This document shows, one piece after another, positions 4,705 through 20,960 of a DNA stretch of 32,014 nt (position 1 is its first letter; each line of letters begins with the position of its first letter). Location: positions 1-32,014 of the forward strand of contig JADGOH010000062.1 in assembly GCA_017883025.1 (NCBI GenBank), written 5' to 3'. This stretch comes from Acidimicrobiales bacterium. GTDB lineage: Bacteria > Actinomycetota > Acidimicrobiia > Acidimicrobiales > RAAP-2. The translations under genes and the position numbers were made by a program. The notes under the pieces were generated by a model. The model was not told the origin of the DNA. It did not search any database and saw nothing but the letters and a program-made list of their open reading frames with translations.

Positions 4705-4709
4705 GGCCC

Positions 4710-4781: not shown

Positions 4782-5689
4782 CCGACAGTCTGCGCACGCC
4801 CGACGAACGGTTCGACGGCATCGGCTGGGAGTTCGCGCCCCACTACCTGAACCATCCGGACGGCCTGCGCCAGCACTACGTGGACGAGCGCCCGACCGAC
4901 GAGGAGCGGGGGACCTTCCTGCTGGTCCACGGCGAGCCCACCTGGTCCTACCTCTACAAGGACTGGATCGGTCCGCTGGTCGACCTCGGGTTCCGGGTGG
5001 TCGCCCCCGACCACTTCGGGTTCGGGCGGTCGGACAAGCCGACCGACGAGGACTGGTACACCACCGCCCGGCACCGCCACGCCCTCGACCACCTGGTGCG
5101 CGAGCTCGACCTGACCGGCGTCCACCTGGTCGTCCAGGACTGGGGTGGGCCGATCGGACTGTGCACGGCGCTGGCCGACCTCGACCGTTACGAGCGGCTC
5201 GTCATCCTCAACACGTGGCTCCACGACGACACCTTCGAGTACTCGGACGGAGTACGGCTCTGGCGCCAGATGGCCGTCGACCCGGCGCAACTGGGTGGCG
5301 ACATGCCGACCGGTGCCATCGTCTCGAGCGTCCTGCGGCGTCCGGGCCACGACGCCGAGGCCATCGTCCGCGCGTTCGACGCCCCTTTCGTCGACGAGGC
5401 GTCCAAGGCCGGCGCCCGCCGGTTCCCGTTCTGCATCCCGTTCGCCGAGCCGGAGCTGGGCGATGCCGCCCTGCAGGCCGAGACCCGGGCCCGCCTCCGC
5501 ACCGTCGGACTTCCCGTCCACGTGGCCTTCGGCGACGCCGACCCGATCTTCACGTGGGAGTGGGCCGAGCAGTGGGCGGACGAGATCGAGGGTGCCACCC
5601 TCGATCGGATCGAGGGAGCAGGCCACTTCGTCCAGATCGACGCCCCTGACGACGTGCTCGCCGTGATCCGTGCCCATGTCGGGGAGTGA
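4778..5689 (+). CDS. Haloalkane dehalogenase-like alpha/beta hydrolase
   Basis: This 303-residue alpha/beta hydrolase resembles DhlA-type haloalkane dehalogenases, which hydrolyse carbon-halogen bonds through an aspartyl ester. The oxyanion region HGEPTWSYLY (51-60) is the DhlA form. The nucleophile is D121 in VVQDWGGPIG, with the halide-holding tryptophan W122 directly after it. The catalytic histidine is H283 (GAGHFVQ), and the acid is probably D253 or D255 (FGDADPIF). A cap domain rich in W and F lies between about 145 and 225. Length and order are normal. The start has an AAGAAGGAG site. Epoxide hydrolases or other relatives are possible, but an Asp nucleophile followed by Trp favours dehalogenase. 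The next gene overlaps its 3' end. Confidence 0.85.
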   Translation: MTDSLRTPDERFDGIGWEFAPHYLNHPDGLRQHYVDERPTDEERGTFLLVHGEPTWSYLYKDWIGPLVDLGFRVVAPDHFGFGRSDKPTDEDWYTTARHRHALDHLVRELDLTGVHLVVQDWGGPIGLCTALADLDRYERLVILNTWLHDDTFEYSDGVRLWRQMAVDPAQLGGDMPTGAIVSSVLRRPGHDAEAIVRAFDAPFVDEASKAGARRFPFCIPFAEPELGDAALQAETRARLRTVGLPVHVAFGDADPIFTWEWAEQWADEIEGATLDRIEGAGHFVQIDAPDDVLAVIRAHVGE

Positions 5690-7025
5690 CAGTGGGGCGG
5701 CCGGGGCCGTCGCCACGCCGATCGGACTGACCCGCAAGGGCGCGCCCGCCCCTGCGGGCAACGCGCCGTCCCTGCGTCCGAGCACCCTCCGGGTGCCGTT
5801 CCACGTCTTGGCCAAGCCGACCGGCCCCATCTGCAACCTCGATTGCGAGTACTGCTTCTTCCTGTCCAAGGAATCGCTCTACCCCGGTGACCGGTTCCGC
5901 ATGTCCGACGACCTGATGGCCGAGTACCTCCGTCAGTTCATCGGCGCGCAGCCGGACGGCGAGGTGACGGTGGCCTGGCAGGGCGGCGAGCCCACGTTGA
6001 TGGGCGTCGACTTCTTCCGCCGTGCGATCGAGTCCGCCGAGTCGGTGCGCCGCCCCGGGCAGCAGCTCCTCCACACGATCCAGACCAACGGCACCCTCCT
6101 GACGGCCGAGTGGTGCGATCTCCTCGCCCGTCACCGGTTCCTGGTCGGCATCAGCATCGACGGGCCGCCCGACATCCACGACCGCTACCGTGTCGACAAG
6201 CGGGGTGGGCCGACCTCCGCCAGGGTGTTGCGCGGGCTCGCCCTGTTGCAGTCCCACGGGGTCGACGTCAACGTCCTCTGCACCGTCCACGCCGCCAACC
6301 AGGACCGCCCGCTCGACGTCTACCGCTACTTCCGTGACGAGCTCGGCCTCACGTTCATCCAGTTCATTCCGATCGTGGAGCGCGAGAACGAGACCGGGTT
6401 CCAGGAAGGCGACACGGTCTCCGACCGGTCTGTCGACCCGGCTGCCTGGGGCGCCTTCCTCGAGGCGGTGTTCGACGAGTGGGTCACCCGGGACGTCGGG
6501 ACCGTGTTCGTGCAGCTGTTCGATGCCGCCCTCGCCACCTGGTGCGGCCTGCCGTCGACACTGTGCATCTTCCGCGAGACGTGCGGAGACGCCCTCGCGC
6601 TCGAGCACAACGGCGACCTCTACTCGTGCGACCACTTCGTCGAGCCCGACCACCTGCTCGGCAACATCACCACCACCACGATGGTGGAGCTGGTCACCTC
6701 GCCGAAGCAGCGGGCCTTCGGCCAGGCGAAGGCCAACTCGCTGCCCGCCTACTGCCGGAGCTGTGCCGTCCGCTTCGCCTGCAACGGCGAGTGCCCTCGC
6801 AACCGGTTCACCCTGACGCCGGACGGCGAGCCCGGGCTGAACTACCTCTGCGCCGGCTACAAGTCGTTCTTCACCCACATCGACGGGTCGATGCGCCTGA
6901 TGGCCCAGCTCCTGCGCAGCGGCCGGTATGCGGACGAGATCCGGGGGATCCTTGCCACCGCCGGGCGCAACGACCCGTGCCCGTGCGGCAGCGGCAGGAA
7001 GGCCAAGGCCTGCCACGGCCGCTGA
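5676..7025 (+). CDS. Radical SAM/SPASM anaerobic sulfatase-maturase-like protein with SEC-C tail
   Basis: A 449-residue protein of the anSME type, which oxidises an active-site Cys or Ser of sulfatases to formylglycine. The radical SAM cluster motif is CNLDCEYC (C53, C57, C60), followed by TVAWQGGEPTLMG and the HTIQTNGTLL, GISIDGP and RGLALLQ segments. The SPASM region has many cysteines (TWCGLPSTLC, FRETCGD, SCDHF, CRSCAVRFACNGECPRNRF) for two extra Fe-S clusters. The last ~22 residues, NDPCPCGSGRKAKACHG, are a zinc-binding SEC-C motif. Start is the ATG at 5676, or a GTG two codons earlier; either overlaps the dehalogenase, suggesting coupling. No sulfatase is in the window. Confidence 0.9.
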   Translation: MSGSDSGAAGAVATPIGLTRKGAPAPAGNAPSLRPSTLRVPFHVLAKPTGPICNLDCEYCFFLSKESLYPGDRFRMSDDLMAEYLRQFIGAQPDGEVTVAWQGGEPTLMGVDFFRRAIESAESVRRPGQQLLHTIQTNGTLLTAEWCDLLARHRFLVGISIDGPPDIHDRYRVDKRGGPTSARVLRGLALLQSHGVDVNVLCTVHAANQDRPLDVYRYFRDELGLTFIQFIPIVERENETGFQEGDTVSDRSVDPAAWGAFLEAVFDEWVTRDVGTVFVQLFDAALATWCGLPSTLCIFRETCGDALALEHNGDLYSCDHFVEPDHLLGNITTTTMVELVTSPKQRAFGQAKANSLPAYCRSCAVRFACNGECPRNRFTLTPDGEPGLNYLCAGYKSFFTHIDGSMRLMAQLLRSGRYADEIRGILATAGRNDPCPCGSGRKAKACHGR

Positions 7026-7049
7026 TCATCGCGGCTCGGGATCGGGACG

Positions 7050-7991
7050 TCAGGGGGTGACGTAGCGGGCGCTGAGGTCGGCCAGCGTGGCCTCGCACCC
7101 GTCTGCGCACGACCGGACGATGTCGCCCACCGGCCGGATGGCGTCGATCCGCCCGGCCACCTGGCCACCCAGGGCGATCCCGGCCCCGAGGTCACCACCG
7201 AAGTACACGTCGCGCACGTTCCCGAACGACGCCATGGCATTGCGCGCGTGGTCGAACTCCAGTGCCTCGCTGTAGGGCGTCCGCAACGCCCGCAACGCCG
7301 GCGAGGCGTGCTGGTTGAGGAAGACGGTGTCGGTGGCGGCGGCGTCCAGGATCGCCTGCTTCCAGTTCGGGTGGATGGGGGACTCGGCGGCGGTCACCAT
7401 CACCGTCCCGAGCTGCACTCCCTCGGCCCCGAGCGCGAACGCCGCCGCCATCGTCGGGCCGTCGAGGAAGCCGCCGGCGGCGATGACCGGCACCTCGAAG
7501 GCCGACGTGACCGAGGGCAGCAGCACCATGGTGGACACGGGACGGGGGTTCTTGAATCCGCCGCCCTCGCCGCCCTCGACGATCAGCCCGTCCACCCCGG
7601 CCTCGACGGCCTTGGCCGCCGCCCGCAGGGTGGGGACGACGTGGAACACGGTCAGCCCGGCGCCCTTCAGCTGGGCCGTGTACTTGGTGGGGCTGCCGGC
7701 CGACGTGGTCACGAAGCGCACGCCCTGGGCGATGACGAAGTCGACGATGACCGTGGGGTCGGCCACGAAGGCCTGCGCGATGTTGACGCCGAAGGGCTTG
7801 TCGGTCAGGTCCTTCATCTTGGCGATCTCGTCCCGGATGGCGTCGAGCTCGCCCGAGGAGGTCTCGATGATCCCCATGGCGCCGGCGTTGGAGACGGCGG
7901 AGGCGAGCGCCGAGCGGGCGATCCACCCCATGGGGGCCTGGACGATGGGGATCTCGATTCCGAGGAGCTCGGTCACGCGGTTGGAGAGCAT
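7050..7991 (-). CDS. Nitronate monooxygenase-family FMN protein lacking the usual His
   Basis: A 313-residue TIM-barrel flavoprotein of the NMO/2-nitropropane dioxygenase and FabK-like group. The visible family marks are the IPIVQAPMGWIA opening (14-25), DKPFGVNI (64-71), the phosphate-binding VIAAGGFLDGPTMAAAFALG (169-188) and EGVQLGTVM (190-198). In classical members the middle segment reads EGxEAGGHxG with a catalytic histidine; here it is VEGGEGGGFKNPRP (138-151), with Phe146 in place of that His. It may therefore act as an NAD(P)H-dependent reductase or on CoA substrates instead of oxidising nitronates, similar to the IpdC-type actinobacterial relatives. Convergent with the radical SAM gene (24-nt gap). 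Confidence 0.85.
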   Translation of the reverse strand: MLSNRVTELLGIEIPIVQAPMGWIARSALASAVSNAGAMGIIETSSGELDAIRDEIAKMKDLTDKPFGVNIAQAFVADPTVIVDFVIAQGVRFVTTSAGSPTKYTAQLKGAGLTVFHVVPTLRAAAKAVEAGVDGLIVEGGEGGGFKNPRPVSTMVLLPSVTSAFEVPVIAAGGFLDGPTMAAAFALGAEGVQLGTVMVTAAESPIHPNWKQAILDAAATDTVFLNQHASPALRALRTPYSEALEFDHARNAMASFGNVRDVYFGGDLGAGIALGGQVAGRIDAIRPVGDIVRSCADGCEATLADLSARYVTP

Positions 7992-8017
7992 CCCCGAAGC
8001 TTGGCATGCGTCCGGCG

Positions 8018-8048
8018 GAGCCGGCCGAGCGCGGCGGGCTGCCGGCTC
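8018..8048 (-). terminator. Hairpin at the 3' end of the K+ channel gene
   Basis: GAGCCGGC (8018-8025) and GCCGGCTC (8041-8048) form an 8-bp perfect stem with a 15-nt loop. It overlaps the channel stop codon on the minus strand. No T-tract follows. It could separate the channel gene from the flavoprotein gene downstream. Confidence 0.4.
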
Positions 8049-8649
8049 AGGCGGACGGCGGCGGATCGACGGCCGCCGCGGTGGCGCCGGGTCCCGCGCT
8101 GTTGCGCTCGTCGGCGGTCCGACCGGCCACGCCGAAGATGACCCGCACGACGATTGCGATGACGGCGAGGTCGGCGATCATCTGGACCGTCGTCACCAGA
8201 CGAGCCAGGTCGCTGTGCGGGGTGATGTCACCGAAGCCGACCGTCGAGAACACCGTGACGGTGAAGTAGAGCGCCGTCACGCGGCTCATCCCGACGTTGA
8301 AGGTGTGCGGGTCCGAGTTCGACATGTTGAGGTAGATCCAGGCGAAGAAGACCAGGAAGAGGGGGATCACCACGGCCATCGCCACCCCGGCGCGCAGCAT
8401 CGGGTGCCGGGCTTTCGTGATGCTCCGGATCTCGAAGAGCAGGACCGCGACGAAGATCGCCGCGGCCACGCCCAGGCGTGCCATGACGCCGACGTCCCTG
8501 ACGATGCTCCCCGACCGGTGGCGCAGGTTGACCGGCATCAGGAAGTAGGCGGCCAGGAGGACTCCGGTGCTGAGGGCGGCCCGGACGCCGGTTCCCAGGA
8601 GCTCACGGCGTTCGACGTCGCCGATTCCGACGATGGATGACGTGGCCAC
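8047..8649 (-). CDS. Potassium channel (Ion_trans_2 family)
   Basis: A 200-residue integral membrane protein. Four hydrophobic segments are visible: about 22-42, 55-74, 88-109 and, after the pore loop, 152-174. The pore helix and selectivity filter TVFSTVGFGDITP (132-144) contain TVGFGD, the K+ channel signature, so the last two helices form a KcsA/MthK-like pore. The C-terminal tail is short (about 25 residues), with no RCK/TrkA domain, so gating is not by a fused ligand domain. The start is GTG 8649 with no good Shine-Dalgarno but a CAGGCT box 6 nt upstream, suggesting a leaderless transcript. It probably sets membrane potential or K+ flux. Confidence 0.88.
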   Translation of the reverse strand: MATSSIVGIGDVERRELLGTGVRAALSTGVLLAAYFLMPVNLRHRSGSIVRDVGVMARLGVAAAIFVAVLLFEIRSITKARHPMLRAGVAMAVVIPLFLVFFAWIYLNMSNSDPHTFNVGMSRVTALYFTVTVFSTVGFGDITPHSDLARLVTTVQMIADLAVIAIVVRVIFGVAGRTADERNSAGPGATAAAVDPPPSA

Positions 8650-8707: not shown

Positions 8708-9559
8708 TCAGCCCCGCTTCGGATCGGACAGATACGCGACGAGTGCGTCCCGGCGCCGGGCGATGAGCCGGAGCGCGTAGCGGTGCCCGAGCCAGACGGC
8801 TGCCGCGGCGATGGCGCACGCCAGGGCGATGCCGAGGCCGAAGTCGTTGTCCGGAAGCTTCTTGGTGAGCCCACTCGGCGAGGTCAGTCCCCAGATCAGC
8901 AGGGACGGCGACAGGAAGGCGATCGTCAGGCCCGGCACGACGGCGTAGGGCAGGAGCACGAGCGTCCCCCATCGCAGCAGCATCGGTTTCCAGTCGCGCC
9001 GACGGCTCCACCGGTAGCGGAGCGGTACCGGGTGGTACGGGTACAGGATCCCGAGCCAGCCCGAGACGGCGAGGACGCCGAACGGCACCACGCCGATGGC
9101 GACGGCGGAGTAGACGGCGGTGATCTTGTCCGACTGGCCGGCACCCGCGATGAACGAGATGAGCAGGCAGATCGGGGCAACGAAGCACCACAGCACGGTG
9201 CTCTTGGCCAAGAGCAGGCGACCGAGCACGCGGGGCTCGTCGATGGCGGCCAGCACCCGGAGGCCGTCGGGGGCGAGCACGTTGGTCGCCGGCACGTCGG
9301 AGTACATCCAGCTCGACAGCACGAAGGCGAACGCCACGCTCCCGTGCAGCGTGAAGAGGTCGTCGACGAGCTTCGGCGGGAGGAAGAACCACGCCGAGCT
9401 CATGAGCCCGGCATTGATGGCGACGGTCAGCGGGGTCTCGAACGGCGGCCGCAGGACCCGGCGCCACTCGGCCCGCAGGGCTTCCCGCAGGGTGCCGGGG
9501 AGCGGCCCGTCGTAGGCGCGGACGTCGGCCGCCATCGGCTCCGGTGTGCTCGGGACCAT
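8708..9559 (-). CDS. Multi-pass membrane protein of unknown function
   Basis: A 283-residue protein with about six hydrophobic segments: near 45-65, 70-90, 118-140, 146-170, 192-220 and 238-258. Basic loops ([24 protein letters not shown]) suggest cytoplasmic faces. The soluble N-terminus ([21 protein letters not shown]) and overall layout recall permease subunits of ABC-2-type exporters, but I see no defining motif and no ATPase is adjacent. I do not recognise the family. The ATG at 9559 is chosen because a TAGGGT box lies 7 nt upstream; the frame stays open to 9688 but would run across the divergent xylA promoter region. Confidence 0.7.
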
Positions 9560-9566
9560 CGGATCG

Positions 9567-9572
9567 ACCCTA
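9567..9572 (-). promoter_or_regulatory. Leaderless -10 box (TAGGGT) of the membrane protein gene
   Basis: On the minus strand TAGGGT is followed by 7 nt and the ATG at 9559, leaving no room for a Shine-Dalgarno. The same hexamer precedes the glycerate kinase ATG at 14791. Confidence 0.6.
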
Positions 9573-9674
9573 CACACTGGGTGCGGCCGGGCCGTGCGAC
9601 CCCATGGTGGCGCCGACCGGCGGCCGACGCGAAGATGCGGTGGTGCGCAGCCGCCGAACAGGGTCGAGCGGGAC

Positions 9675-11012
9675 GTGACCGACACCACGGAGTTCTTCGA
9701 GGGGATCGGACCGATCCGCTACGCGGGGCCGGCGAGCGACGACCCGCTGACGTACCGCTGGTACGACGCCGACCGCGTCGTGGCGGGACGGCGCATGGAG
9801 GATCAGCTGCGGATGGCCGTCTGCTACTGGCACAGCTTCGTGTGGCCGGGATCGGACATCTTCGGTGAGGGGACGCTCGACCGGCCCTGGAACGCGCCGG
9901 GGCTGGAGCCGATGGCGGCGGCCCGCCGGAAGATGGCGGCCGCCTTCGAGTTCTTCGCCAAGCTCGCCACGCCCTTCTTCTGCTTCCACGACCGGGACAT
10001 CGCCCCGGCCGGCGACACCTTCGCCGAGTCGTGCGCCCGCCTCGACGCCATGGTCGACGAGGCGATCGGGCACATGGAGCGCTCCGGTGTCCGGCTCCTG
10101 TGGGGGACGGCCAACCTGTTCTCCCACCCGCGCTACGCCGCCGGCTCGGCGACCAACCCCGACCCGGAGGTCTTCGCCCACGCTGCCGCCCAGGTGTGCC
10201 ACGTCCTCGAGGCGACCCACCGGATGGGCGGGGCCAACTACGTCCTGTGGGGCGGGCGCGAGGGCTACGACACCCTGCTCAACACCGACCTGGTCCGCGA
10301 GGAGGCCCAACTCGCCCGGTTCCTCCACCTGGTGGTCGAGCACAAGCACCGGATCGGGTTCGCGGGGTCGATCCTGATCGAGCCCAAGCCCGCCGAGCCG
10401 GCCAAGCACCAGTACGACCACGACGCGGCCACCGTGGCCGGCTTCCTGGCCCGGCACGGCCTCGAGGGGGAGGTGCTGGTCAACCTGGAGGGCAACCACG
10501 CCACGCTCGCCGGGCACAGCTTCCACCACGAGGTGGCGACGGCCGTCGCCACCGGCGTGTTCGGCTCGATCGACGCCAACCGGGGCGACCCGCAGAACGG
10601 GTGGGACACCGACCAGTTCCCAACCTCGGTCGAGGAGTGCACGCTCGTCCTCTACGAGATCCTCGCCGACGGCGGATTCACGACCGGCGGCATCAACTTC
10701 GACACGAAGCTGCGCCGCCAGTCGGTGGCCCGCGACGACCTGTTCCACGGGCACGTCGGGGCCGTCGACACGATGGCCCGGGCCTTGCTGGCCGCGGCGT
10801 CGTTGCTCGAGTCGGGCGCCCTCGCCGACCGGAAGACGGCGCGCTACGCCGGGTGGGACGAACCCCTCGGGGCCCGCATCCTCGGCGGGAGCGCCACGTT
10901 GGCCGACCTGCACCGCCTCGTCCTCGACGAGGAGCTCGACCCGACACCCGACTCGGGGCGCCAGGAGCTGCTCGAGAACCTGGTGAACCGCCACGTCGAG
11001 CGGACGCGGTGA
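9675..11012 (+). CDS. xylA: Xylose isomerase
   Basis: A 445-residue class II (E. coli-like length) xylose isomerase converting D-xylose to D-xylulose with two divalent metals. The catalytic His is in [10 protein letters not shown] (H105, D108). Substrate and metal positions are visible: [10 protein letters not shown] (145-154), [15 protein letters not shown] (191-205), IEPKP (E236, K238), [12 protein letters not shown] (E272, H275), D300 in GSIDANRGD, and GWDTDQFPT (D311, D313). The GTG start at 9675 follows GAGCGGGAC; a CAGGGT box lies 10 nt upstream. The divergent 115-nt gap to the membrane protein gene must hold its promoter, but I see no clear operator. Its stop overlaps the GH3 start by four bases (GTGA), so the genes are translationally coupled. 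Confidence 0.97.
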
Positions 11013-13240
11013 CCGGCCTGCCCGATACCGGGGCGACCGGGCCCACCCCGTTCGCTTCCTCCGTCGATCGGGTCCGGGGCGGCGCCGACCATCACGCCGA
11101 GGCCCGGGCACTGGTGGCGGCCATGACGGACGAGGAGAAGCTCGGCTGCCTCGACGGGGACACCGAATTCTGGTCCGGCATCGTCGACATGGTCGGCGGT
11201 GGCTACCACCGCCACGCCTGGCCTGCCGCCGTGGTCGCGAGACTGGGCGTCCCGGGCATCCACTTCGCCGACGGACCCCGTGGCTGCGTGATCGGCCCGG
11301 CCACCTGCTTCCCCGTGTCGATGGCCCGGGGGGCCACGTTCGATCCCGAGCTCGAGGAGCGGATCGGCCGGGTCATCGGCACCGAGCTGCGGGCGATGGG
11401 GGCGACCTACACCGGGGCCGTGTGCATGAACCTCCTCCGCCACCCCGGATGGGGACGGGCCCAGGAGACCTACGGCGAGGATCCCCACCACGTGGGCGAG
11501 ATGGCCGCGGCGCTGACCCGGGGCCTCCAGACCCGGGTCATGGCCTGCATGAAGCACTTCGCCTGCAACTCGATGGAGGAGGCCCGGTTCCGGGTGGACG
11601 TGACGGTGGACGAGCGCGCGCTCCACGAGGTCTACCTGCCCCACTTCCGCCGGGTGGCCGACGAGGGCGTGGCATCGGTCATGTCCGCGTACAACTCGGT
11701 CAACGGGAACTGGTGCGGTGAGCACACCGTGCTGCTCACCGACGTCCTGCGCGCCGAGTGGGGATGGGACGGGTTCGTGACCTCCGACTTCATCGCCGGC
11801 CTCCGCGACCCGGTCCTGTCAGTGACGGCTGGCCTGGAGATCGAGATGCCGTTCCGCCAGCAGCGGGCCCAGCACCTGCCGGACGCGGTGGCGTCCGGCG
11901 CCCTGGCCCTGGCCGACGTCGAGGCCCGAGTCGAGGCCACGCTGGCCACCCTGCTGCGGTTCGCCCACGTGTTCGAGCGGGCGCCCGACCCCTCGGTGCT
12001 CGCCGCACCGGACCACCGGGACCTGGCCCGGGAGGCCGCCGCCGCGGCGATGGTGCTCCTACGCAACGAGGGCGGGCTCCTCCCGGTGACGACGGATCCC
12101 GGGCGCGTGGCTGTCCTCGGCCGGCTCGCGGCCGTCCCCAACCTGGGCGACGGCGGGTCGAGCGACGTCTACCCTCCCGAGGTGTCGACGCTCCTCGACG
12201 GCGTGCGGGCGGCGTTCCCGACCGCCGACGTCGTGCACCACGACACCGATGCATCCGTGGCGGAGGGGGCGGACCTGGCCATCGTCGTGGTGGGATGCAC
12301 CAAGGCCGACGAGGGCGAGTTCATCGACGTCGGGACGAGCGAGTCGATGCTGGCCATGTTCCCACCGCCGCCTCCCGGCGGGTCGGCGCCGCCGCCCGCT
12401 GCCGTGGCCGAGGAGCCGCCGGCACCCGACCTCCCCGTCGACGCCGCGCCCTCCGTTGACGCGCCCTCCGACGCCGCCACGGAGCACGGGACCTTCGCCC
12501 CGGGCGGTGACCGCCGGTCGCTCCGGCTGTCCGCCGCCGACGAGGCCCTGGTGCGGGGGACCGCCGCCGCCTGCCCCCGCACGGTGGTGGCCGTCATGGG
12601 CGGCTCGGCTGTGGTCATGCCGTGGCTCGAGGGGGTGCCGGCCACGCTGCAGGTCTGGTATCCGGGCATGGAAGGCGGCAGCGCGTTCGCCGACGTGCTG
12701 ACCGGGGTACGGGAGCCTGGCGGGCGGCTCCCGTTCGCCCTGCCACGCGACGAGGCCGACCTGGTCGCGTGGGATCCGGACGCCGACACCGTCGTCTACG
12801 ACCTCTTCCACGGGCAGTGGAAGCTCGACCGCGACGGCGTGGCCCCGCACCGGCCGTTCGGCGCGGGGCTCGGCTACACCGACTTCGAGTTGGACCCCGG
12901 ATCGGCGCACGTGCGACAGGTCGGGCCCGGGGTGACCACCGGGTCGGTCGAGGTGGCGGTGGCCAACGCCGGCGACCGACCGGGCTCCACCGTCGTGTTC
13001 GCGTTCGCCGGGCTCCCGGGTTCGAGCGTGGACCGTCCGCTGCGGCGCCTGGTCGGCTTCCGGCGGGTGGTGCTCGACGCCGGCGCCCGCACGGTGGTGG
13101 TGCTTCCGTTCGACCTGGCCACCCTGGCCGTGCGGCGGGGCGGCGGCTGGTTCCAGGAGCCGGGCCGCTACGTGCTCGACGTCGGCACCGACGCCGGGAC
13201 GCCGGTCGCCACGGTGACCGTGGACGTGTCGGGCACGTGA
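11009..13240 (+). CDS. Glycoside hydrolase family 3 (probable beta-xylosidase or beta-glucosidase)
   Basis: A 743-residue GH3 enzyme that removes terminal beta-linked sugars with retention. The N-terminal barrel carries [10 protein letters not shown] (83-92), the substrate-binding KHFACNSME (182-190) and the nucleophile Asp260 in FVTSDF. The alpha/beta sandwich follows ([11 protein letters not shown], 350-360), then a fibronectin-III-like end with [12 protein letters not shown]. There is no signal peptide, so it acts in the cytoplasm. A Pro/Ala/Asp-rich insertion (about 452-495) interrupts the second domain near where the acid/base residue normally sits; E435/E437 (KADEGEF) are candidates. 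Placement between xylA and xylB points to xylo-oligosaccharides, inferred from context. The GTG start overlaps xylA. Confidence 0.9.
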
Positions 13241-13280
13241 CGCGTCACCGGAGGTCGCCGACCGACCAGGCCCGCTGACC

Positions 13281-14717
13281 GTGCCGCTCGTCCTGGGGGT
13301 GGACAGCTCCACCCAATCGACCAAGGTGGAGCTGCGGGACGCCGACGACGGCACCCTGGTGGGGTCGGCGCAGGCACCCCACCCGGCCGTCCACCCGCCC
13401 GCTTCGGAGCAGGACCCCGAATCGTGGTGGGAGGCGCTCTGCCTGGCCGTGGCCCAGGCCACCGCCGACGGGTCCCACGACGTGGCGGCCATATCCGTTG
13501 CGGCCCAGCAGCACGGCATGGTCGTGCTGGACGGGGCCGGCCGCCCGTTACGGGACGCCAAGCTCTGGAACGACACCGAGTCCGCCCCCGAGGCGGCGGC
13601 CATGGTCGCCGAGCTCGGCGCGGCCTGGTGGACCGCCCGCACCGGATCGGTGCCGGTGGCCGCCTTCACCGTCACCAAGCTGGCCTGGCTGGCCAGGCAC
13701 GAGCCAGACACGGCCCGCGTCGTGCACTCGGTCCTGCTGCCCCACGACTACCTCACCTACCGACTCACCGGTCGGCGGGTCACCGACCGGGGCGACGCCT
13801 CGGGGACCGGCTACTTCGACCCGACCGGCGACGCCTGGCTGCCGGACCTGTTGGAGCAGGTCGTCGGGGCCGGCGCGTGGCTCGAACGGCTGCCCGAGGT
13901 CCTCGGGCCGACCGAGTCGGCCGGCCCGGTGGACGGCCCGGGGCTGGTGGCCCTGGACCTCGGTCCCGTCGGGAAGGTTGGCCCCGGCACCGGCGACAAC
14001 ATGGCGGCCGCCCTCGGGCTCGGACTCACCCCCGGACAGGCGTGCGTGTCGATCGGCACGTCCGGCACCGTCTACACCCGCTCCGGTTCGTCGGTGACCG
14101 ACCCGACCGGCGCGGTGGCGGGGTTCGCCGACGCCACCGGCGGATTCCTGCCCCTCGTCTGCACGCTCAACGCCACCCGGGTCACGGGGGCCGTCGCCCG
14201 TCTGCTCGGGGTCACGCCGGCCGGGCTCGACGAACTGGCGCTGGCCGCCGCGTCCGGGGCGTCCGGCGTCACCCTGCTGCCCTACTTCGACGGCGAGCGC
14301 ACGCCGGACCGGCCGGACGCCACCGGGACGATCGCGGGGATCCGGGCCGACGTCGACCGCGAGGACCTGGCCAGGGCCGCCTTCGAGGGTGTGGTGTGCG
14401 GGCTGCTCGACGGACTGGACGCGCTGTCGGACGTGGTGCCGCTCGACGACGGCCCGCTGCTGCTGGTGGGCGGGGGCGCACGGTCGGCTGCCTTCCGCCG
14501 GTTCCTGGCCGACCTGTCGGGGCGACCCGTGCTGGTGCCCCAGGTGGAGGAGGCGGCGGCCACCGGGGCCGCCGTGCAGGCCGCCGCCGTCCTGACGGGG
14601 CGCCCGCTCGACGAGGTCCAGTCGGCGTGGGGTGTGGGCGGTGGCGTCCTCGTCGAGCCGGACGGCGCGGTGGACGCGGCGGCGGTGCGCGACGCCTATG
14701 CCGCCGTCCGGGGCTGA
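13281..14717 (+). CDS. xylB: Xylulokinase (FGGY family)
   Basis: A 478-residue FGGY-family sugar kinase. The ATP-grasping first strand is GVDSSTQSTK (6-15); AQQHGMVVLD carries the family's substrate-binding QQHG; KLWNDTES (residues about 94-101) and the middle segment RGDASGTGYFDP are xylulokinase-like. The second phosphate segment is SIGTSGTVYT, and the adenosine motif is LLLVGGGARSAAFRRFLADL. It phosphorylates the D-xylulose made by XylA to xylulose-5-phosphate for the pentose phosphate pathway. The GTG at 13281 is fixed by an in-frame stop just upstream. A GGAGG lies 25-30 nt before it, too far for a normal site, so initiation may depend on read-through from GH3. An exact palindrome, GTGACGCGTCAC (13237-13248), spans the GH3 stop. 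Confidence 0.95.
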   Translation: MPLVLGVDSSTQSTKVELRDADDGTLVGSAQAPHPAVHPPASEQDPESWWEALCLAVAQATADGSHDVAAISVAAQQHGMVVLDGAGRPLRDAKLWNDTESAPEAAAMVAELGAAWWTARTGSVPVAAFTVTKLAWLARHEPDTARVVHSVLLPHDYLTYRLTGRRVTDRGDASGTGYFDPTGDAWLPDLLEQVVGAGAWLERLPEVLGPTESAGPVDGPGLVALDLGPVGKVGPGTGDNMAAALGLGLTPGQACVSIGTSGTVYTRSGSSVTDPTGAVAGFADATGGFLPLVCTLNATRVTGAVARLLGVTPAGLDELALAAASGASGVTLLPYFDGERTPDRPDATGTIAGIRADVDREDLARAAFEGVVCGLLDGLDALSDVVPLDDGPLLLVGGGARSAAFRRFLADLSGRPVLVPQVEEAAATGAAVQAAAVLTGRPLDEVQSAWGVGGGVLVEPDGAVDAAAVRDAYAAVRG

Positions 14718-14742
14718 GGCCACCGACCGGCGCCGGGTGGCC
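14718..14742 (+). terminator. Hairpin terminator after xylB
   Basis: GGCCACC (14718-14724) pairs with GGTGGCC (14736-14742) across an 11-nt loop, starting at the base after the xylB stop. No T-run is present. The following gene has its own promoter. Confidence 0.45.
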
Positions 14743-14790
14743 GGCCCATCCTCCGGGTGGTGGTTCCCGCCCTTCGGGCCCGTTGCTCGG

Positions 14791-14796
14791 TAGGGT
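14791..14796 (+). promoter_or_regulatory. Leaderless -10 box (TAGGGT) of the glycerate kinase gene
   Basis: TAGGGT is followed by 6 nt (CCGGGG) and the ATG at 14803. There is no Shine-Dalgarno, so the transcript is probably leaderless. Confidence 0.6.
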
Positions 14797-14802
14797 CCGG
14801 GG

Positions 14803-15828
14803 ATGCCCCGGGTCGTGGTCGCGCCGGACAAGTTCCGGGGGACCGCCACGGCGGCCGAGGTGGCGGGGGCCATGTGCGGAGCCGCCACCGGGCTCGGCTG
14901 GCAGGCCGTCCGGCTCCCCCTGTCGGACGGTGGCGACGGCATGCTCGACGCCTGTGCGGCGCTGGCGCCCGAGCCGGTCGTCACCCGCGTCACGGGACCG
15001 GACGGGTCGCCTGTCGACGCCGGGTGGCGCCTCGGCGAAGGTGTCGCCGTGGTCGAGCTGGCCCGGGCCTCGGGCCTGGCCCTGGTGGGCGGCCCCGACG
15101 GCAACGACCCGGTCCGGGCCACGTCTCGAGGGACCGGCGAGTTGCTCGTGGCAGCTGCGAGGCGGGTCGGACGGGGTGGGAGGCTGATCCTCGGCCTGGG
15201 GGGCTCGGCCACCACCGACGGCGGTCGCGGCATCTGGGAGGCGGTCGTGGAGGCGGGCGGGCTGGACGGGGTCGAGCTGGTGGGGGCGTGCGATGTGGAG
15301 ACGCGGTACTGCGACGCCGCCGAGGTGTTCGGGCCGCAGAAGGGCGCCGGCCCCGACGACGTCGTCGCGCTGACCGAGCGGCTGGTGCGGCAGGCCCAGG
15401 TGTGGGCGGACGATCTCGGGGTGGACGTCCGGGACGTCCCCGGATCCGGGGCGGCCGGGGGAGCGGGCGGTGCGGTGGTGGCCCTCGGCGGCTCACTCCG
15501 GTCGGGGTACCGGCTGGTGGCCGACCTGGTGGGCCTCGGGCCGGCGCTCGAGGGCAGCGACCGGGTGGTGACGGGGGAGGGGGCACTCGACGCCGGGTCC
15601 TTCGCCGGCAAGGTGGTGGGCGGGGTGGTCGGCGACGCCCGGGGTCGGGAGATCGCCACACTGGTCGTGGTCGGCCGGGCTACGGCTGCGGCCACCGCCG
15701 AGGCCGAACGTGCGGGGTGCGTCGTGGTGTCCCTGACCGACCGCTTCGGCGAGGCCCGGTCGCTCGGGGACACGGCCGCCTGTGTGGCCGAGGTGACGGC
15801 AGCCTGGCTCGGGCCCGCTCCGGGGTGA
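14803..15828 (+). CDS. Glycerate kinase (type I, GlxK/GarK family)
   Basis: A 341-residue enzyme phosphorylating D-glycerate. The opening VVVAPDKFRGTATAAEVA (residues 4-21) is the family signature, followed by LPLSDGGDGMLDA (44-56), the RATSRGTGELL region, and the strongly conserved LILGLGGSATTDGGRG near 126-141. AEVFGPQKGAGP and DRVVTGEGALDAGSFAGKVV complete the pattern. Length and order are standard. It follows the xylose operon but is separated from it by a hairpin and has its own leaderless promoter, so a direct link to pentose use is uncertain. It more likely serves glycolate/glyoxylate or serine metabolism. Confidence 0.95.
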   Translation: MPRVVVAPDKFRGTATAAEVAGAMCGAATGLGWQAVRLPLSDGGDGMLDACAALAPEPVVTRVTGPDGSPVDAGWRLGEGVAVVELARASGLALVGGPDGNDPVRATSRGTGELLVAAARRVGRGGRLILGLGGSATTDGGRGIWEAVVEAGGLDGVELVGACDVETRYCDAAEVFGPQKGAGPDDVVALTERLVRQAQVWADDLGVDVRDVPGSGAAGGAGGAVVALGGSLRSGYRLVADLVGLGPALEGSDRVVTGEGALDAGSFAGKVVGGVVGDARGREIATLVVVGRATAAATAEAERAGCVVVSLTDRFGEARSLGDTAACVAEVTAAWLGPAPG

Positions 15829-15846: not shown

Positions 15847-15975
15847 GAGGGGTCACTGGGTCTGCACCGGTCCGCCCGGTGTGGGCGACCGGCCTGCCAA
15901 CCGGGGTCGGAGCGCCCGACCCGGCGGCAATCCCGGTGGCGTCGAGCGGCCGGGATCCCTGGGGGGGCGGACTGC

Positions 15976-15981
15976 TAGTGT
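15976..15981 (+). promoter_or_regulatory. -10 box (TAGTGT) of the cobalamin transport operon
   Basis: TAGTGT sits in GACTGCTAGTGTCGGAG, about 9 nt before the first paired base of the riboswitch. The transcript would therefore begin just upstream of the aptamer. No clear -35 was identified. Confidence 0.55.
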
Positions 15982-15989
15982 CGGAGCCG

Positions 15990-16108
15990 AAGCATGAAGT
16001 CCCCAGGCGGGGAAGCCGGTCGGAGTCCGGCGCTGGTCCGCAACCGTAGGCAGCACCACCACCGAGGTCGGGTGAGGTGCGGCGAGTCGGGATACCGCCC
16101 GGGTGCTT
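15990..16108 (+). promoter_or_regulatory. Cobalamin (adenosylcobalamin) riboswitch
   Basis: The leader carries the conserved parts of the cobalamin aptamer in order. The closing stem pairs AAGCA (15990-15994) with TGCTT (16104-16108). The core runs GGGAAGCCGGT (about 16010-16020), CGGAGTCCGGCGCTG, then GTCCGCAACCGT (16037-16048), and ends in the B12 box GAGTCGGGATACCGCCC (16084-16100). About 100 nt separate it from the first start codon. That stretch should hold the expression platform, either a terminator or a sequestered ribosome site, but I could not identify the switching helix. It is expected to shut off the four genes below when cobalamin is plentiful. Confidence 0.9.
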
Positions 16109-16209
16109 GATGAGTCCCACCCGTCGAGAACAGCGGTCCGGACTCGGTCATCGGGGGCGGTGCGCCTTCCGGTGCTCCCGGGGTCGTGGCCCGGAAGCGA
16201 GCAGGCCCC

Positions 16210-17217
16210 ATGTCCCTCATCCGCCGCCGGTCACCGGTCGCAGCCGATGGGGGCCGGGCGCGCCCGGACCCGGACCTTCGAGGGCGTCGGAGCCGGTCCA
16301 CGGCGCGGCGACTCGTCCGCGGCGTGCTGGTCGTCGCCGCGGGCACCGCTGCCCTGTCGCTGGCCGGCCCCTTCGCGCTGCGCCCCTTCACCGACCTCGC
16401 CGGGGCGGCTGGCGAGGTCACGGTGGCCTTCGTCCTCGACTTCGGCAGCACGTCGGCCGACCTGGTCGTCGGCTGCGTCACCGTCCCCGCCTCCGACAGC
16501 CGGTACGACGCACTCACCGCATTCGTGGCGTCGCGTGGACTCGCCTCGCCGACCTACGCCACGAGCGGGCTGCTGTGCTCGATCAACGGGACGCCGACGT
16601 CCGGGTGCGGACAGACCGTTCCCGGCGGGTACGTCTACTGGTCCTACTTCACCGCCGGGCAGGGAGCCTGGACGTACTCGAGCACGGGGGCGTTCGCCAC
16701 GGTGAGCCCGAACGACGTGGAGGGCTGGCGCTTCCAGAACCCGGGGTCGGGCCGTCCGAACGACCCGGCGCCGCGGGCGACGGCCCAGTACCAGGCCATC
16801 TGCCCGGCGACGCCGCCCTCGACCACGACGACCACGACGACCACGACCACGCCGAGCGCCCCGGACGGTGGGGGCACGAGGCCGGGGGGCGGCGCGTCCA
16901 CCACGCCGGGGGGCGGCGGGTCCGCCACCCCGGCCGCGGTTGCGCACGCGCACGCCGCCCAGTCCTCGAAGGGGGGGACCACGGGCTCCGCGGGCTCGAC
17001 CTCCACCACGACGACCACGTCCACCCGCCCCTCGGACTCCCCGTCGTCGTTGCCCGACTCGAGCATCCCGTCCGATCCCAAGGTCGCCGTCGCCACGGTC
17101 GCCCGCCATGTGACGCCCGGACCCGGGCCCGTCCCGCTCATCGTGGGCGGGCTCGTGGTGGCCGGACTGGCCGCCGCCGCCTGGCTCCGGTGGCGTAGGC
17201 GCCCCCGGACGCCGTGA
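16210..17217 (+). CDS. Secreted, membrane-anchored SCO2322/DUF4430-like protein (probable cobalamin capture)
   Basis: This 335-residue protein has a basic N-terminus and a signal segment (about 35-58, ending near LAGAAG). The extracellular domain (68-200) contains VAFVLDFGS, YDALTAFVASRG (99-110), LLCSINGTPTSGCG (121-134) and YVYWSYFTAGQGAWTYSSTG (141-160). These resemble streptomycete SCO2322-family proteins and the DUF4430/transcobalamin beta-domain pattern. C89, C123, C133 and C198 may form disulfides. A Thr/Gly/Ser-rich linker (202-285) leads to a C-terminal membrane helix (308-326) and a basic stop-transfer (RWRRRPR). Gene order and riboswitch control suggest it delivers cobalamin to the ECF transporter; this is inferred. 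ATG 16210 has an AGCAGG site; GTG 16186 is an alternative. The stop overlaps the T-component start. Confidence 0.7.
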   Translation: MSLIRRRSPVAADGGRARPDPDLRGRRSRSTARRLVRGVLVVAAGTAALSLAGPFALRPFTDLAGAAGEVTVAFVLDFGSTSADLVVGCVTVPASDSRYDALTAFVASRGLASPTYATSGLLCSINGTPTSGCGQTVPGGYVYWSYFTAGQGAWTYSSTGAFATVSPNDVEGWRFQNPGSGRPNDPAPRATAQYQAICPATPPSTTTTTTTTTTPSAPDGGGTRPGGGASTTPGGGGSATPAAVAHAHAAQSSKGGTTGSAGSTSTTTTTSTRPSDSPSSLPDSSIPSDPKVAVATVARHVTPGPGPVPLIVGGLVVAGLAAAAWLRWRRRPRTP

Positions 17218-18506
17218 GGCGACCCGGCTCGGCCTCGCCGGGTCGACGGGGGCTCCACCCGGCGGCGTGGTGGTTGTGGGCGGCCTGTATGGCCGGTGCG
17301 GCCTCACGCACCACGAACCCGATCCTCCTCCTCCTCATCGGCGGCGTGGTGGCCTTCGTGGTCGCCGCCCGCCGGACCGCCGCCCCGTGGTCGCGCTCGC
17401 TGGTGGTGTTCCTGCGGCTGGGCCTGGTGGTGATCGTGCTGCGGGTGGTGCTGGTGGTCGTCTTCGGGAACCGCCTGCCCGGGCACGTCCTGTTCACGCT
17501 CCCGCAGGTGCCCTTACCGTCGTGGGCCCGCGGGGTGAGCATCGGCGGGCCAGTCACCGTCGAGGCCCTGGTCCAGGCGGTCGTCCAGGGCCTGCGCCTC
17601 GCCGTCGTGCTGCTGTGCTTCGGCGCCGCCAACTCGCTCGCCAGCCCCTACCGGCTGCTGCGGTGCCTGCCGGCCGTGCTCTACGAGGCCGGTGTCGCCA
17701 TCACGGTCGCCCTCGCGTTCGCTCCGGAGCTGGTCGTGTCGATCGGTGCCGTGCGGGACGCCCGGCGGCTGCGCGGTCGTCCCGTGCGGGGGTTCGCCGG
17801 CCTGCGGGGCATGGCCGTGCCCGTGCTCGAGAGCGCCTTCGACCGTTCGTTGCAACTGGCGTCGTCCATGGACGCCCGCGGCTACGGCCGTCGGGTCCCG
17901 GTGTCGGCGGGTGCCAGGCGGTGGGCGACCGGCGGAACCGCGGTGGGGTTGCTCCTGGTGATCGGGGGCGTCTACGGGGTGCTGGTCAGCGGCTCGTTGC
18001 CGGGCGGCGGGATCCCCTTCGTTGCGGTCGGGGCCGTCCTGGTGGGTGTCGGGCTCGCCGCCGGCGGGCGCCGGACCAACCGCACCCGGTACCGCCCCGA
18101 CCCATGGGGGTGGCCGGAGTGGGTGGTGGGCGCCTCGGGCGCCGTGGCCGTGGGCTGCCTGATCGCCGCCGGCGTGCTCGGTGTCGCCGGCCTCCAGTTC
18201 TCCGTCTACCCGCTGGGCCTCCCCACCCTGCCCCTGCTGGCCGCAGCCGGGATCCTGGTGGGCCTGCTGCCCGCCTGGGCGGCCCCCGTCGAGCGCCGCA
18301 CCGCGGCGCCGGCACGGACACGTCCGCCGCGGGCACCGGGCGGGCCGGAGCGCGGCCGCACGGCCACCCCGGCGGCCGATTCGGCCGACGTGCCGCCCGA
18401 GCGGCCCGTGCCCCCGTCATCGTTGCCGGTGCCCACCAGCCCGAAGCGGCCGGCGGTCACCCCGGCCGATGCACCGGTGGGCCGCATCGAGGGACGCGTC
18501 GCGTGA
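17214..18506 (+). CDS. ECF transporter T component (CbiQ/EcfT-like)
   Basis: A 430-residue membrane protein coupling the ATPases to the substrate-binding S component. It has several hydrophobic helices (about 15-30, 36-52, 62-84, 122-142 and 155-175), then the cytoplasmic coupling helices. These carry the family's two Ala-Arg motifs: VRDARRLRG (180-188) and SMDARGYGRR (218-227). Extra helices follow (about 238-262, 265-288, 308-332 and 338-358). A Pro/Arg-rich, probably disordered tail (365-430) makes it longer than typical EcfT proteins (about 260 aa). The GTG start at 17214 overlaps the previous stop as GTGA, and its own stop overlaps the ATPase start the same way, indicating a tightly coupled operon. 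Confidence 0.88.
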   Translation: MRRPGSASPGRRGLHPAAWWLWAACMAGAASRTTNPILLLLIGGVVAFVVAARRTAAPWSRSLVVFLRLGLVVIVLRVVLVVVFGNRLPGHVLFTLPQVPLPSWARGVSIGGPVTVEALVQAVVQGLRLAVVLLCFGAANSLASPYRLLRCLPAVLYEAGVAITVALAFAPELVVSIGAVRDARRLRGRPVRGFAGLRGMAVPVLESAFDRSLQLASSMDARGYGRRVPVSAGARRWATGGTAVGLLLVIGGVYGVLVSGSLPGGGIPFVAVGAVLVGVGLAAGGRRTNRTRYRPDPWGWPEWVVGASGAVAVGCLIAAGVLGVAGLQFSVYPLGLPTLPLLAAAGILVGLLPAWAAPVERRTAAPARTRPPRAPGGPERGRTATPAADSADVPPERPVPPSSLPVPTSPKRPAVTPADAPVGRIEGRVA

Positions 18507-20122
18507 TCCGCTTCGAGCAGGTCACGTTCACCTACGACGGGGCCGACCTCCCGACGCTCGACCGTGTCGACCTCGCCGTCGGCGAAGGCGAGCTGTGCGT
18601 GGTGGTGGGCCCGACCGGCTCGGGCAAGACCACCCTGCTGCGGGCCGTGAACGGCCTGGTGCCCTACTTCACCGGCGGCCGCCTGTCGGGCGAGGTCGTC
18701 GTCGACGGCCGCTCCACGCGGGACTACCCGCCCCGGGAGCTCGCCGACGTCGTCGGCATGGTGGGGCAGAACCCGGCGGCCAGCTTCGTGACCGAGTCGG
18801 TCGAGGACGAACTGGCGTACACGATGGAGAACCTCGGGATCGAACCTGCGGTCATGCGACGACGGATCGAGGACACCCTCGACCTCCTCGGGCTGCACGA
18901 GCTGCGCCACCGGCCGCTCGCCACGCTGTCAGGCGGGCAGCAGCAGCGGGTGGCCATCGGCGCCGTGCTCACCGCGTCGCCCCGGGTGCTGGTCCTCGAC
19001 GAGCCGACGTCGGCCCTCGATCCGGCCGCCGCCGAGGAGGTGCTCGCGTCGCTCACCCGACTGGTCCACGACCTCGGCCTGACCGTGCTCCTGGCCGAGC
19101 ACCGCCTCGAGCGCGTGCTGCCCTTCGCCGACACCATGGTCCTGGTGCCGGGCCGGGGGTCCCCGCTCGTCGTCGGGACCGCGGCCGAGGTCATGGTCGA
19201 CTCGCCGGTGGCGCCTCCCCTGGTGGAGTTGGGCCGGCTGGCGGGGTGGGCTCCGCTGCCGCTGTCCGTGCGGGACGCCCGCCGCCAGGCCGGCGCACTG
19301 CGCCTCCGCCTCGCCGGCGCCCGACCGGCGACCCGCGACGCCGTGGCCGGAGCGCCACTGGCCACCCTCGACTCGGTGACCGTCCGCTACGACGAGGTCA
19401 CCGCGCTCGACGCGGTCAGTCTGGCCTTCGGTGCCGGCGAGGTGGTGGCCGTCATGGGGCGCAACGGCTCGGGCAAGTCCACGTTGCTCGCCCAGGTGGC
19501 CGGGGTGCGGCCACCGGCGTCGGGCACGGTTCGACTCGACGGCGTCGACCCGGTCGGTCTCGGCCCGCGCGACCTGGTGGCCAAGGTGGGCCTGGTGCCA
19601 CAGGACGCCGGTGTCCTGCTCTACGGCGAGTCGGTGGGCGAGGAGTGCGCCAGTGCCGACCACGACACCGGCCTCCCACCGGGGACGACCGCGGCCGTGC
19701 TCGAGCGGGTGCTGCCCGGACTGGACCCCGACCGCCATCCGCGGGACCTGTCCGAGGGCCAGCGCCTGGCCGTGGTGCTCGCCGTGGTGCTCGCCCCGGC
19801 GCCCCCGCTGCTCCTGCTCGACGAGCCGACACGGGGCCTCGACTACCCGGGCAAGGCCCGACTCGTCCGCCTGCTCACCGAGCTCGCCGACGCGGGCCAC
19901 GGTGTGGTCGTGGCCACCCACGACGTCGAGCTGGTGGCCCAGGTGGCCACGCGTGCCGTCGTGCTGGCCGAGGGCGAAGTCGTGGGGGACGGTCCCGCCC
20001 GCGCTGTCGTGTGCCACTCGCCGGTGTTCGCCCCGCAGGTGGCCAAGGTGCTGAGCCCGGACCCGTGGCTCACCGTCGACGAGGTGCGTACCGCACTGCT
20101 GGGGGAGCCGGTCCGTGGCTGA
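18503..20122 (+). CDS. ECF transporter double ATPase (fused EcfA-EcfA')
   Basis: This 539-residue protein contains two complete ABC ATPase domains, replacing the usual two subunits. Domain 1 has Walker A GPTGSGKTT (36-44), Q-loop VGQNP (87-91), signature LSGGQQQR (142-149), Walker B VLVLDEPTSALD (162-173) and the switch H200. Domain 2 has Walker A GRNGSGKST (319-327), Q-loop VPQD, signature LSEGQRL (416-422), Walker B LLLLDEPTRGLD (436-447) and the switch H in VATHDVEL. A linker (about 245-285) joins them. Both sites look catalytically competent, so energy coupling should be normal. The GTG start overlaps the T-component stop, and the S component starts within its last codons. Confidence 0.95.
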   Translation: MIRFEQVTFTYDGADLPTLDRVDLAVGEGELCVVVGPTGSGKTTLLRAVNGLVPYFTGGRLSGEVVVDGRSTRDYPPRELADVVGMVGQNPAASFVTESVEDELAYTMENLGIEPAVMRRRIEDTLDLLGLHELRHRPLATLSGGQQQRVAIGAVLTASPRVLVLDEPTSALDPAAAEEVLASLTRLVHDLGLTVLLAEHRLERVLPFADTMVLVPGRGSPLVVGTAAEVMVDSPVAPPLVELGRLAGWAPLPLSVRDARRQAGALRLRLAGARPATRDAVAGAPLATLDSVTVRYDEVTALDAVSLAFGAGEVVAVMGRNGSGKSTLLAQVAGVRPPASGTVRLDGVDPVGLGPRDLVAKVGLVPQDAGVLLYGESVGEECASADHDTGLPPGTTAAVLERVLPGLDPDRHPRDLSEGQRLAVVLAVVLAPAPPLLLLDEPTRGLDYPGKARLVRLLTELADAGHGVVVATHDVELVAQVATRAVVLAEGEVVGDGPARAVVCHSPVFAPQVAKVLSPDPWLTVDEVRTALLGEPVRG

Positions 20123-20960
20123 GCGCACCCACGTCGTCGCCGTCCGTCTGCAGGCACGCTCGTCGGCCCTGCTCCTCGTGACCTCCCTGCTGGGGCTGGT
20201 CTGCTTCGGCTGGCCGCTCCTCCTCCACGGCAGCTCGGCCTCGGCACTGGCCCACTCGGCGGACGCTCCCTGGATCTTCCTGTCGCTCATGCCGCTGCTG
20301 CTCGCCGTGGTGCTGAGCGCGCTGGCGGAGGGTTCGCTCGACGCCAAGGCCATCGCCCTCCTGGGGATCCTGGCGGCGTGCGGCGCCGCCCTGCGGGTGC
20401 CCCAGCCCGGGATCGCCGGGTTCGAGCCGGTGTTCTTCCTACTCATCCCCGCGGGCCGGGTGTACGGGCGGGGCTTCGGGTTCGTGCTGGGGGCACTGAC
20501 ATTGGCGGTGTCGGCCCTGGTCACCGGCAACGTGGGCCCGTGGCTGCCCTTCCAGATGTTCGGCGCGGCCTGGATGGGGTTCGGCGCCGGCTGCCTCCCT
20601 CCGGCCAGGGGCCGGGCCGAGCTGTGGCTGCTCGCAGGCTACGCAGCTGCCGTCTGCATCCTGTACGGCGCGCTCATCAACCTGTGGTTCTGGCCGTTCG
20701 GGGCGGGCACGGCGACGGCGTTCTCCTTCCAGCCCGGCGCGGGATTCCTGGTGAACCTGCACCGCTTCGTGCTCTTCGACCTGACGACGTCGCTCGGCTT
20801 CGACATCCCCCGAGCCGTAGTCAACGCCGTGCTCGTGCTGGTGGTGGGCCGCCCCGTGCTCAACGCCCTGCGCCGTGCGAGCCGCCGGGCCGCGTTCGAC
20901 GTCCCCGTCGCACACGTCGACGCGGCGACCGACGGCCCCGTGGAGACATCGGTCGCCTGA
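20115..20960 (+). CDS. ECF transporter S component (probable cobalamin-specific)
   Basis: A 281-residue membrane protein with about six hydrophobic segments (near 17-37, 52-70, 78-96, 120-140, 168-190 and 230-250). PGIAGFEPVFFLLIPAGRVY (98-117) and GALTLAVSALVTGNVGPWLP (126-145) are the recognisable S-component core, including small-residue faces that contact the T component. As last gene of a cobalamin-riboswitch operon it is assigned to cobalamin (or cobinamide) binding; the sequence alone does not fix the substrate. The GTG start at 20115 overlaps the ATPase stop by 8 nt. A terminator-like hairpin follows 21 nt after the stop. Confidence 0.85.
   Translation: MAERTHVVAVRLQARSSALLLVTSLLGLVCFGWPLLLHGSSASALAHSADAPWIFLSLMPLLLAVVLSALAEGSLDAKAIALLGILAACGAALRVPQPGIAGFEPVFFLLIPAGRVYGRGFGFVLGALTLAVSALVTGNVGPWLPFQMFGAAWMGFGAGCLPPARGRAELWLLAGYAAAVCILYGALINLWFWPFGAGTATAFSFQPGAGFLVNLHRFVLFDLTTSLGFDIPRAVVNAVLVLVVGRPVLNALRRASRRAAFDVPVAHVDAATDGPVETSVA

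Follow-up and report, generated by a model that had tools for sequence, protein, structure and literature searches.

What kind of machine does a cobalamin riboswitch control when the genes behind it encode both a surface protein and an energy-coupling factor (ECF) transporter? The question is raised by a stretch of 32,014 nucleotides from the metagenome-assembled genome (MAG) of an Acidimicrobiales bacterium (GCA_017883025.1, contig JADGOH010000062.1), the whole of which was analysed and is called the window here. In it, a riboswitch is followed by four overlapping genes, of which the first specifies a secreted, membrane-anchored protein and the others an ECF transporter with its own module (Table 1). 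We conclude that this unit is probably a cobalamin-repressed importer equipped with a split transcobalamin that is displayed at the cell surface. A first-pass annotation made from the sequence had placed a cobalamin riboswitch at 15990–16108 with four overlapping genes behind it and an ECF transporter among them, and each of these elements is borne out. A cmscan search of the whole window against 4227 families returns the cobalamin family RF00174 at 35.5 bits (gathering score 31.5; E = 1.2e-5), the gene overlaps are present as described, and the link to the transporter extends to relatives, as CbiQ, CbiO and S-component genes occur in 40 of 40 fetched stretches centred on a homologue of gene 1 (on the opposite strand in L101; L and G numbers are our locus and genome identifiers).

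The character of the system is set by gene 1. Its translation comprises a signal segment, an extracellular domain that we call the beta domain, a linker rich in Thr, Gly and Pro, a C-terminal hydrophobic segment and a basic tail (RWRRR), and the signal segment, cysteines, YWSYF motif, Thr/Gly linker and C-terminal anchor predicted at first pass can all be read there. No LPXTG motif of a sortase-anchored protein is visible by eye in the translation ahead of the hydrophobic segment, which points to a simple transmembrane anchor. An AlphaFold2 model of the beta domain from 33 aligned sequences has a predicted local distance difference test score (pLDDT) of 89.7 and a predicted template-modelling score of 0.85. 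Searched against the PDB with Foldseek, this model recovers transcobalamin or haptocorrin entries at all of ranks 1–12, the best being 5np4 (E = 1.5e-3, probability 1.00). VIA-align likewise lists 14 rows of transcobalamin, haptocorrin or intrinsic factor with Z scores of 11.7–12.4 and root-mean-square deviations of 1.9–2.4 over 97–103 residues, followed by 3u7z from Ruminococcus gnavus (Z 10.6) and then a fall to 7.8. As modelled, the extracellular domain is a beta-grasp fold of the transcobalamin type and a close structural match to these carriers; the initial proposal of such a fold for residues 68–200 is thus supported by the model and both structure searches, with bounds now at residues 64–202.

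Profile comparison adds an evolutionary connection. Aligned with hhalign to a profile of actinobacterial DUF4430 (28 domains from 30 fetched loci, with L182 and L188 left out), the beta profile scores a probability of 91.3 and a single-comparison E value of 9.5e-7 over query columns 5–115, in the same order; 20 of 20 column-shuffled controls stayed at a probability of 1.6 or less, and toroid and S-component profiles reached at most 0.4. By this comparison of profiles, the beta domain is a distant homologue of DUF4430. The DUF4430 likeness suggested earlier stands in that sense, but the Pfam model (PF14478) reaches 0 of 33 aligned beta domains, the window's included, at E = 0.1 or better, and none in the window's MAG. 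A second suggested likeness, to SCO2322, fares similarly. Gene 1 matches SCO2322_fam (NF040672) at E = 1.6e-16 in two stretches whose order is swapped, and is a circularly permuted relative, but at 61 bits it is no member of the family by the 85-bit cut-off.

What does such a domain work with? In many relatives the riboswitch is followed by a gene for a secreted alpha/alpha toroid of squalene-cyclase type, then by the beta gene and then by the ECF genes; the toroid model (pLDDT 91.3) has the alpha/alpha toroid fold. We surveyed 172 genomes of the family for both proteins. Profile searches find beta homologues in 41, counting the window's own genome (a first search with a single protein had found 34), and a strong toroid in 40. 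Both occur in 38 genomes, beta alone in three (the window's MAG, G057 and G095, the last with an internal stop in its beta match), toroid alone in two (G004 and G039) and neither in 129, so that 38 of the 43 genomes with either protein have both (Fisher p = 3.9e-32, a value that ignores the kinship of the genomes). The toroid threshold, E below 1e-20, was chosen after a gap in the best E value per genome, from 1.6e-25 to 1.8e-12, had been seen; matches weaker than the gap are partial and cyclase-like, and a threshold of E = 0.001 would make 71 of 172 genomes toroid-positive. Given this co-occurrence, the machine is likely to be a surface transcobalamin of two chains that supplies a dedicated ECF importer of vitamin B12. 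The idea of a tethered capture protein, put forward at first pass, is upheld in so far as the beta gene is tied to ECF genes, but gene 1 looks like half a binder, the toroid being present in 38 of 41 beta-positive genomes. Of 41 named loci with a beta domain, 22 have Acidimicrobiaceae or Acidimicrobiales in their titles, and the words bog, palsa or fen appear in many isolate names.

The two genes also stand behind the same kind of control element. Where the toroid does not adjoin beta, it lies on a separate stretch behind an RF00174 element of its own, including in the closest sisters of the window. One riboswitch stands before each of the two loci in G008, G009, G016, G017, G019 and G023, and likewise in G305, G451 and G273. 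When 30 beta-carrying genomes were scanned, 28 had RF00174 matches at E = 0.001, and 34 of the 37 matches lay upstream of a toroid or beta gene, 30 of these 34 over the gathering score. Matches away from both genes are G067:C12:11193-11316 (92.8 bits), G067:C28:4264-4385 and G013:C7:19963-20154. In the window's MAG, the element of the window is the only RF00174 match. For G003, G007, G010–G013 and G037, toroid and beta lie at contig ends and their distance is thus undefined.

Several observations weigh against the reading of the locus as half of a split transcobalamin. Searches of the window's own MAG, 71.65% complete, did not bring up a toroid. At the level of the toroid, the match to B12 binders is unspecific, because both fold and sequence favour cyclases: squalene-hopene cyclases lead the structural ranking (Z 26.9) with the alpha domain of intrinsic factor at rank 28 (Z 21.2), and the 28 PDB sequence matches with E values no worse than 0.1 comprise cyclases, prenyltransferases and AprG, with no B12 binder. 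For beta, Foldseek gives no PDB match at E = 0.001, the best E value being the 1.5e-3 of 5np4, and the beta profile finds no relative in the PDB by sequence (best PsaF, E = 0.35); the fold assignment is right, and rests on structure and profiles, as direct sequence search of the PDB yields nothing. The S-component profile finds no PDB chain up to E = 10, and no sequence link to CbrT emerged from that search. Finally, some of the paired riboswitch elements fall below the gathering score, namely both in G023, both in G273 and one each in G305 and G451.

The missing toroid allows for a rival scheme: in the window's organism the toroid would have been lost, and the tethered beta domain would bind B12 by itself and pass it on to the S component. 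An isolated beta domain can hold the ligand alone, judging by the title of 5np4, in which that of human transcobalamin was crystallised with cyanocobalamin. All 13 other genomes of the genus that were searched contain the toroid, however, the closest sisters in which the two genes are split have it behind a riboswitch of its own, and the incompleteness of the MAG bears on its absence there; capture by beta alone therefore seems unlikely to us. Unlike the fold ranking, one motif of the toroid speaks against a cyclase. Where squalene cyclases have DxDD, all 20 of the aligned toroids read D-[TS]-N and none reads DxDD; with this replacement the toroids are unlikely to be cyclases, and a terpene-cyclase role is disfavoured.

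Might the extracellular proteins instead be sensors, adhesins or wall proteins that merely share an operon with the transporter? In the split clade, an IPT/TIG domain forms the end of the toroid (4 of 4 scanned), and some toroids have extra repeats by eye, both of which are common in surface proteins. This explanation would make a large coincidence of the ECF linkage, the near-exclusive control by B12 riboswitches and the folds of both transcobalamin domains, and we regard it as very improbable. The extra repeats, C-terminal and tandem, are of the type GGYWEVASDGGIFSFGDA in the toroids of L070, L072, L073 and L074 and resemble a beta-propeller by eye; repeats of this sort may be why, in several relatives, the toroid gene ends one contig and the beta gene another. 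Speaking for the split transcobalamin, a more distant relative, L086 (genome G414), has a toroid and two transcobalamin-beta-like domains in one open frame, 5397–8279. By eye, this frame contains cell-wall-binding repeats; it has an RF00174 match at 31.0 bits, just under the gathering score, and a further toroid-like frame lies at 3165–5210.

On the transporter side, CbiQ and two ATPases are found in the window itself, whereas the S component is recognised at the level of its orthologue set. The window's protein matches PF07155 weakly (E = 0.0014, below the cut-off), and 9 of 19 aligned orthologues match PF12822 (ECF_trnsprt; best E = 1.7e-11). ECF S components are usually described as binding their vitamin directly. 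We propose that the split transcobalamin would work ahead of this step. At low cobalamin, the riboswitch would permit expression. Gene 1 would be exported and stay tethered by its C-terminal segment, so that a flexible linker presents the beta domain on the outer side of the membrane. A secreted toroid from a gene of its own, expected elsewhere in the genome under a second B12 riboswitch, would complete the binding site, and both chains would close around one B12 molecule. The tether could then hold this cargo beside the S component, which would take it over and carry it in, with CbiQ and the fused CbiO pair powering import.

The cargo itself could in principle differ. Cobalt transporters also stand under B12 riboswitches, according to the portion of PMC3766115 consulted, and a known ECF importer of B12 transports cobinamide too (PMC5997447, in excerpt), which would suit cobinamide or another corrinoid precursor, or else cobalt, as the substrate. 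Against this, the nearest solved folds are B12 carriers, the orthologues of gene 4 match ECF S families and gene 4 has no match to CbiM. Moreover, CbiC had no match in the incomplete MAG, where free cobalt would thus be of little use. We consider these other cargoes quite unlikely and take B12 to be the probable ligand. The rest of the genome is in keeping with this choice. In it, one frame of 1348 residues combines a MetH activation domain with a B12-binding domain, there are two further B12-binding proteins, and a BtuC/FecCD-type permease appears only as a sub-threshold match (22.3 bits; cut-off 26.5). The absences of CbiC and of this permease are weak evidence because of the completeness of the MAG. 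These features fit an organism that requires B12 and imports it through the ECF system.

How does this system relate to known ones? With animal transcobalamin, intrinsic factor and haptocorrin it shares the beta fold (Z about 12), the N-to-C order of the beta domain and, in the relatives of the window, a partner with the alpha/alpha toroid fold. In contrast to these carriers, it would consist of two separate chains, its beta domain is tethered, an ECF importer would take the place of an endocytosis receptor, and the beta profile has no significant sequence match to them in the PDB. Other precedents are bacterial. In 2007, Burroughs et al. described surface proteins with a transcobalamin-like SLBB (DUF4430) domain that have signal peptides, anchors and toroids, are generally encoded in CbiO/CbiQ operons and are widespread in low-GC Gram-positives and planctomycetes, and proposed that they scavenge B12 (PMC1796856, in the portion consulted). 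The first-pass statement that ECF importers are not normally described with such a partner is wrong, because this proposal came first. The window family shares with those proteins the secreted beta-grasp domain, the CbiO/CbiQ operon and the suggested scavenging. It differs, as far as that portion goes, in being too divergent for Pfam DUF4430, in its operon, which begins with a riboswitch and includes an S component of its own, and in encoding toroid and beta separately, at times far enough apart to form two loci, whereas the toroid there is in fusion. Genuine DUF4430 genes of other actinobacteria adjoin CbiQ- or CbiO-like frames by eye (L167, L169), in agreement with the 2007 prediction. ECF-CbrT of Lactobacillus delbrueckii is likewise an ECF-type cobalamin importer, and one shown experimentally; it uses a shared (group II) ECF module, unaided it binds B12 at about 9 nM, and the excerpt of PMC5997447 mentions no extracellular capture protein.

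Alike in gene content are the Streptomyces families SCO2321 and SCO2322 (NF053823 and NF040672), whose operons have the same toroid, beta, CbiQ, CbiO and S genes. In these genomes both subunits are circularly permuted, whereas the window's beta keeps the canonical order. The SCO2322 beta domain begins with the YWS half, and its last half corresponds to the first half of the window family and of DUF4430; the toroid of the SCO2321 family is permuted as well. Among loci in which both subunits could be read in two pieces (L141, L153 and L157–L160, with partial or very divergent toroids, were left out), a swapped beta goes with a swapped toroid in 12 of 12 (L093–L096, L146–L149, L151, L152, L154 and L155), and a straight beta with a full-length toroid match goes with a straight toroid in 9 of 9 (L127, L131, L134, L136–L140 and L144). 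Overall, the beta domain is permuted in L093–L097, L146–L152, L154 and L155, from Streptomyces-type and some other actinobacteria, and each toroid that could be read there is permuted as well. Permutation is probably the derived state, because transcobalamin and DUF4430 have the straight order in common. If the two chains do form a clamp, their joint permutation suggests that matched changes to its ends are tolerated or selected for.

A tree built on S plus CbiO of 65 loci, some of them one genome under two identifiers and with L093–L096 and L155 dropped at the filter, places 8 permuted leaves in an 11-leaf group (support 1.0) together with three unpermuted ones, L086, L089 and L090, and thus contains no clean permuted clade. 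The window and its four split sisters stand apart from the split loci L082–L084, and for this reason the toroid may have moved away from the beta locus at least twice. More broadly, we lean slightly towards the view that across the Actinobacteriota a two-subunit transcobalamin, toroid plus tethered beta, captures B12 outside the cell and delivers it to a dedicated ECF importer, with both subunits permuted in the same genomes. The split actinobacterial form with its own S component, the two-locus riboswitch regulon and the joint permutation of both subunits in Streptomyces-type genomes appear to be new here; we found no earlier description of the split form, the regulon or the joint permutation in a literature search that left out most subscription journals. 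The openly readable literature yielded nothing under the name SCO2322, and for SCO2320, SCO2321, SCO2323, SCO2324 and SCO2325 the only match concerns a cell-penetrating peptide. The permutation treated in PMC1949818 concerns, in the portion consulted, a domain other than that of transcobalamin.

Further detail of the leader comes from an alignment of the window with four sister leaders (Table 1). The start of gene 1 is better placed at ATG 16210 than at GTG 16186, since this ATG is common to the window and three sister leaders; the fourth sister stretch stops short of it. The TAnnnT box upstream of the aptamer is a probable promoter element. On the 3' side of the aptamer, an inverted repeat, GAGTCC...GGACTC at 16112–16145, is kept in the sister leaders, where the stretch between its arms is strongly conserved, and is possibly part of the expression platform. 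Folded as a single sequence, the leader (15975–16230) is not better than shuffled sequences (z 0.76), which lends no support to a switching mechanism.

Table 1 Features of the riboswitch-led unit in the window
Feature	Position	Strand	Evidence
TAnnnT (-10-like) box, probable promoter element	15976..15981	+	T, A and T invariant in 5/5 aligned leaders
Cobalamin riboswitch aptamer core (RF00174)	16010..16096	+	cmscan above gathering score; kept in 5/5 aligned leaders
Leader, probable expression platform (aptamer to start codon)	16097..16209	+	Long conserved blocks in the 5-leader alignment
Gene 1, secreted, membrane-anchored transcobalamin-beta-like protein, 335 aa	16210..17217	+	Translation; ATG common to three sister leaders; homologues in relatives
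Beta domain of gene 1, 139 aa, residues 64-202	16399..16815	+	AlphaFold2 model; Foldseek; VIA-align; hhalign to DUF4430
Gene 2, EcfT/CbiQ transmembrane subunit	17214..18506	+	PF02361, 30.5 bits (cut-off 25)
Gene 3, fused double ECF ATPase, CbiO-CbiO/EcfA-EcfA'	18503..20122	+	ABC_tran, E 4.8e-53, two stretches; TIGR01166 cbiO above cut-off
Gene 4, ECF S component, predicted cobalamin-specific	20115..20960	+	PF07155 below cut-off; orthologues match PF12822

Outside the unit, the region upstream (9546–15828) is an apparent sugar cluster, with a sugar isomerase, a GH3-type glycosidase and an FGGY kinase by eye and a glycerate kinase (PF02595) as its last gene. Synteny with the four closest sisters, L062–L065, takes in this glycerate kinase and, on the downstream side, an acyl-CoA ligase.

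There are several implications. First, the SCO2321 and SCO2322 families, which NCBI has named without a function, gain a proposed function that can be tested. Second, bacterial and animal B12 carriers are linked, and an extracellular partner is predicted for an ECF importer. Third, the assembly of the transcobalamin clamp can be studied in natural experiments, namely the split and permuted forms. Such loci may also mark uncultured Actinobacteriota that rely on the B12 of their neighbours. If our proposal is true, these bacteria would capture B12 with a device in two parts, kin in fold to the carriers of human blood and gut, and pass it to a membrane pump.

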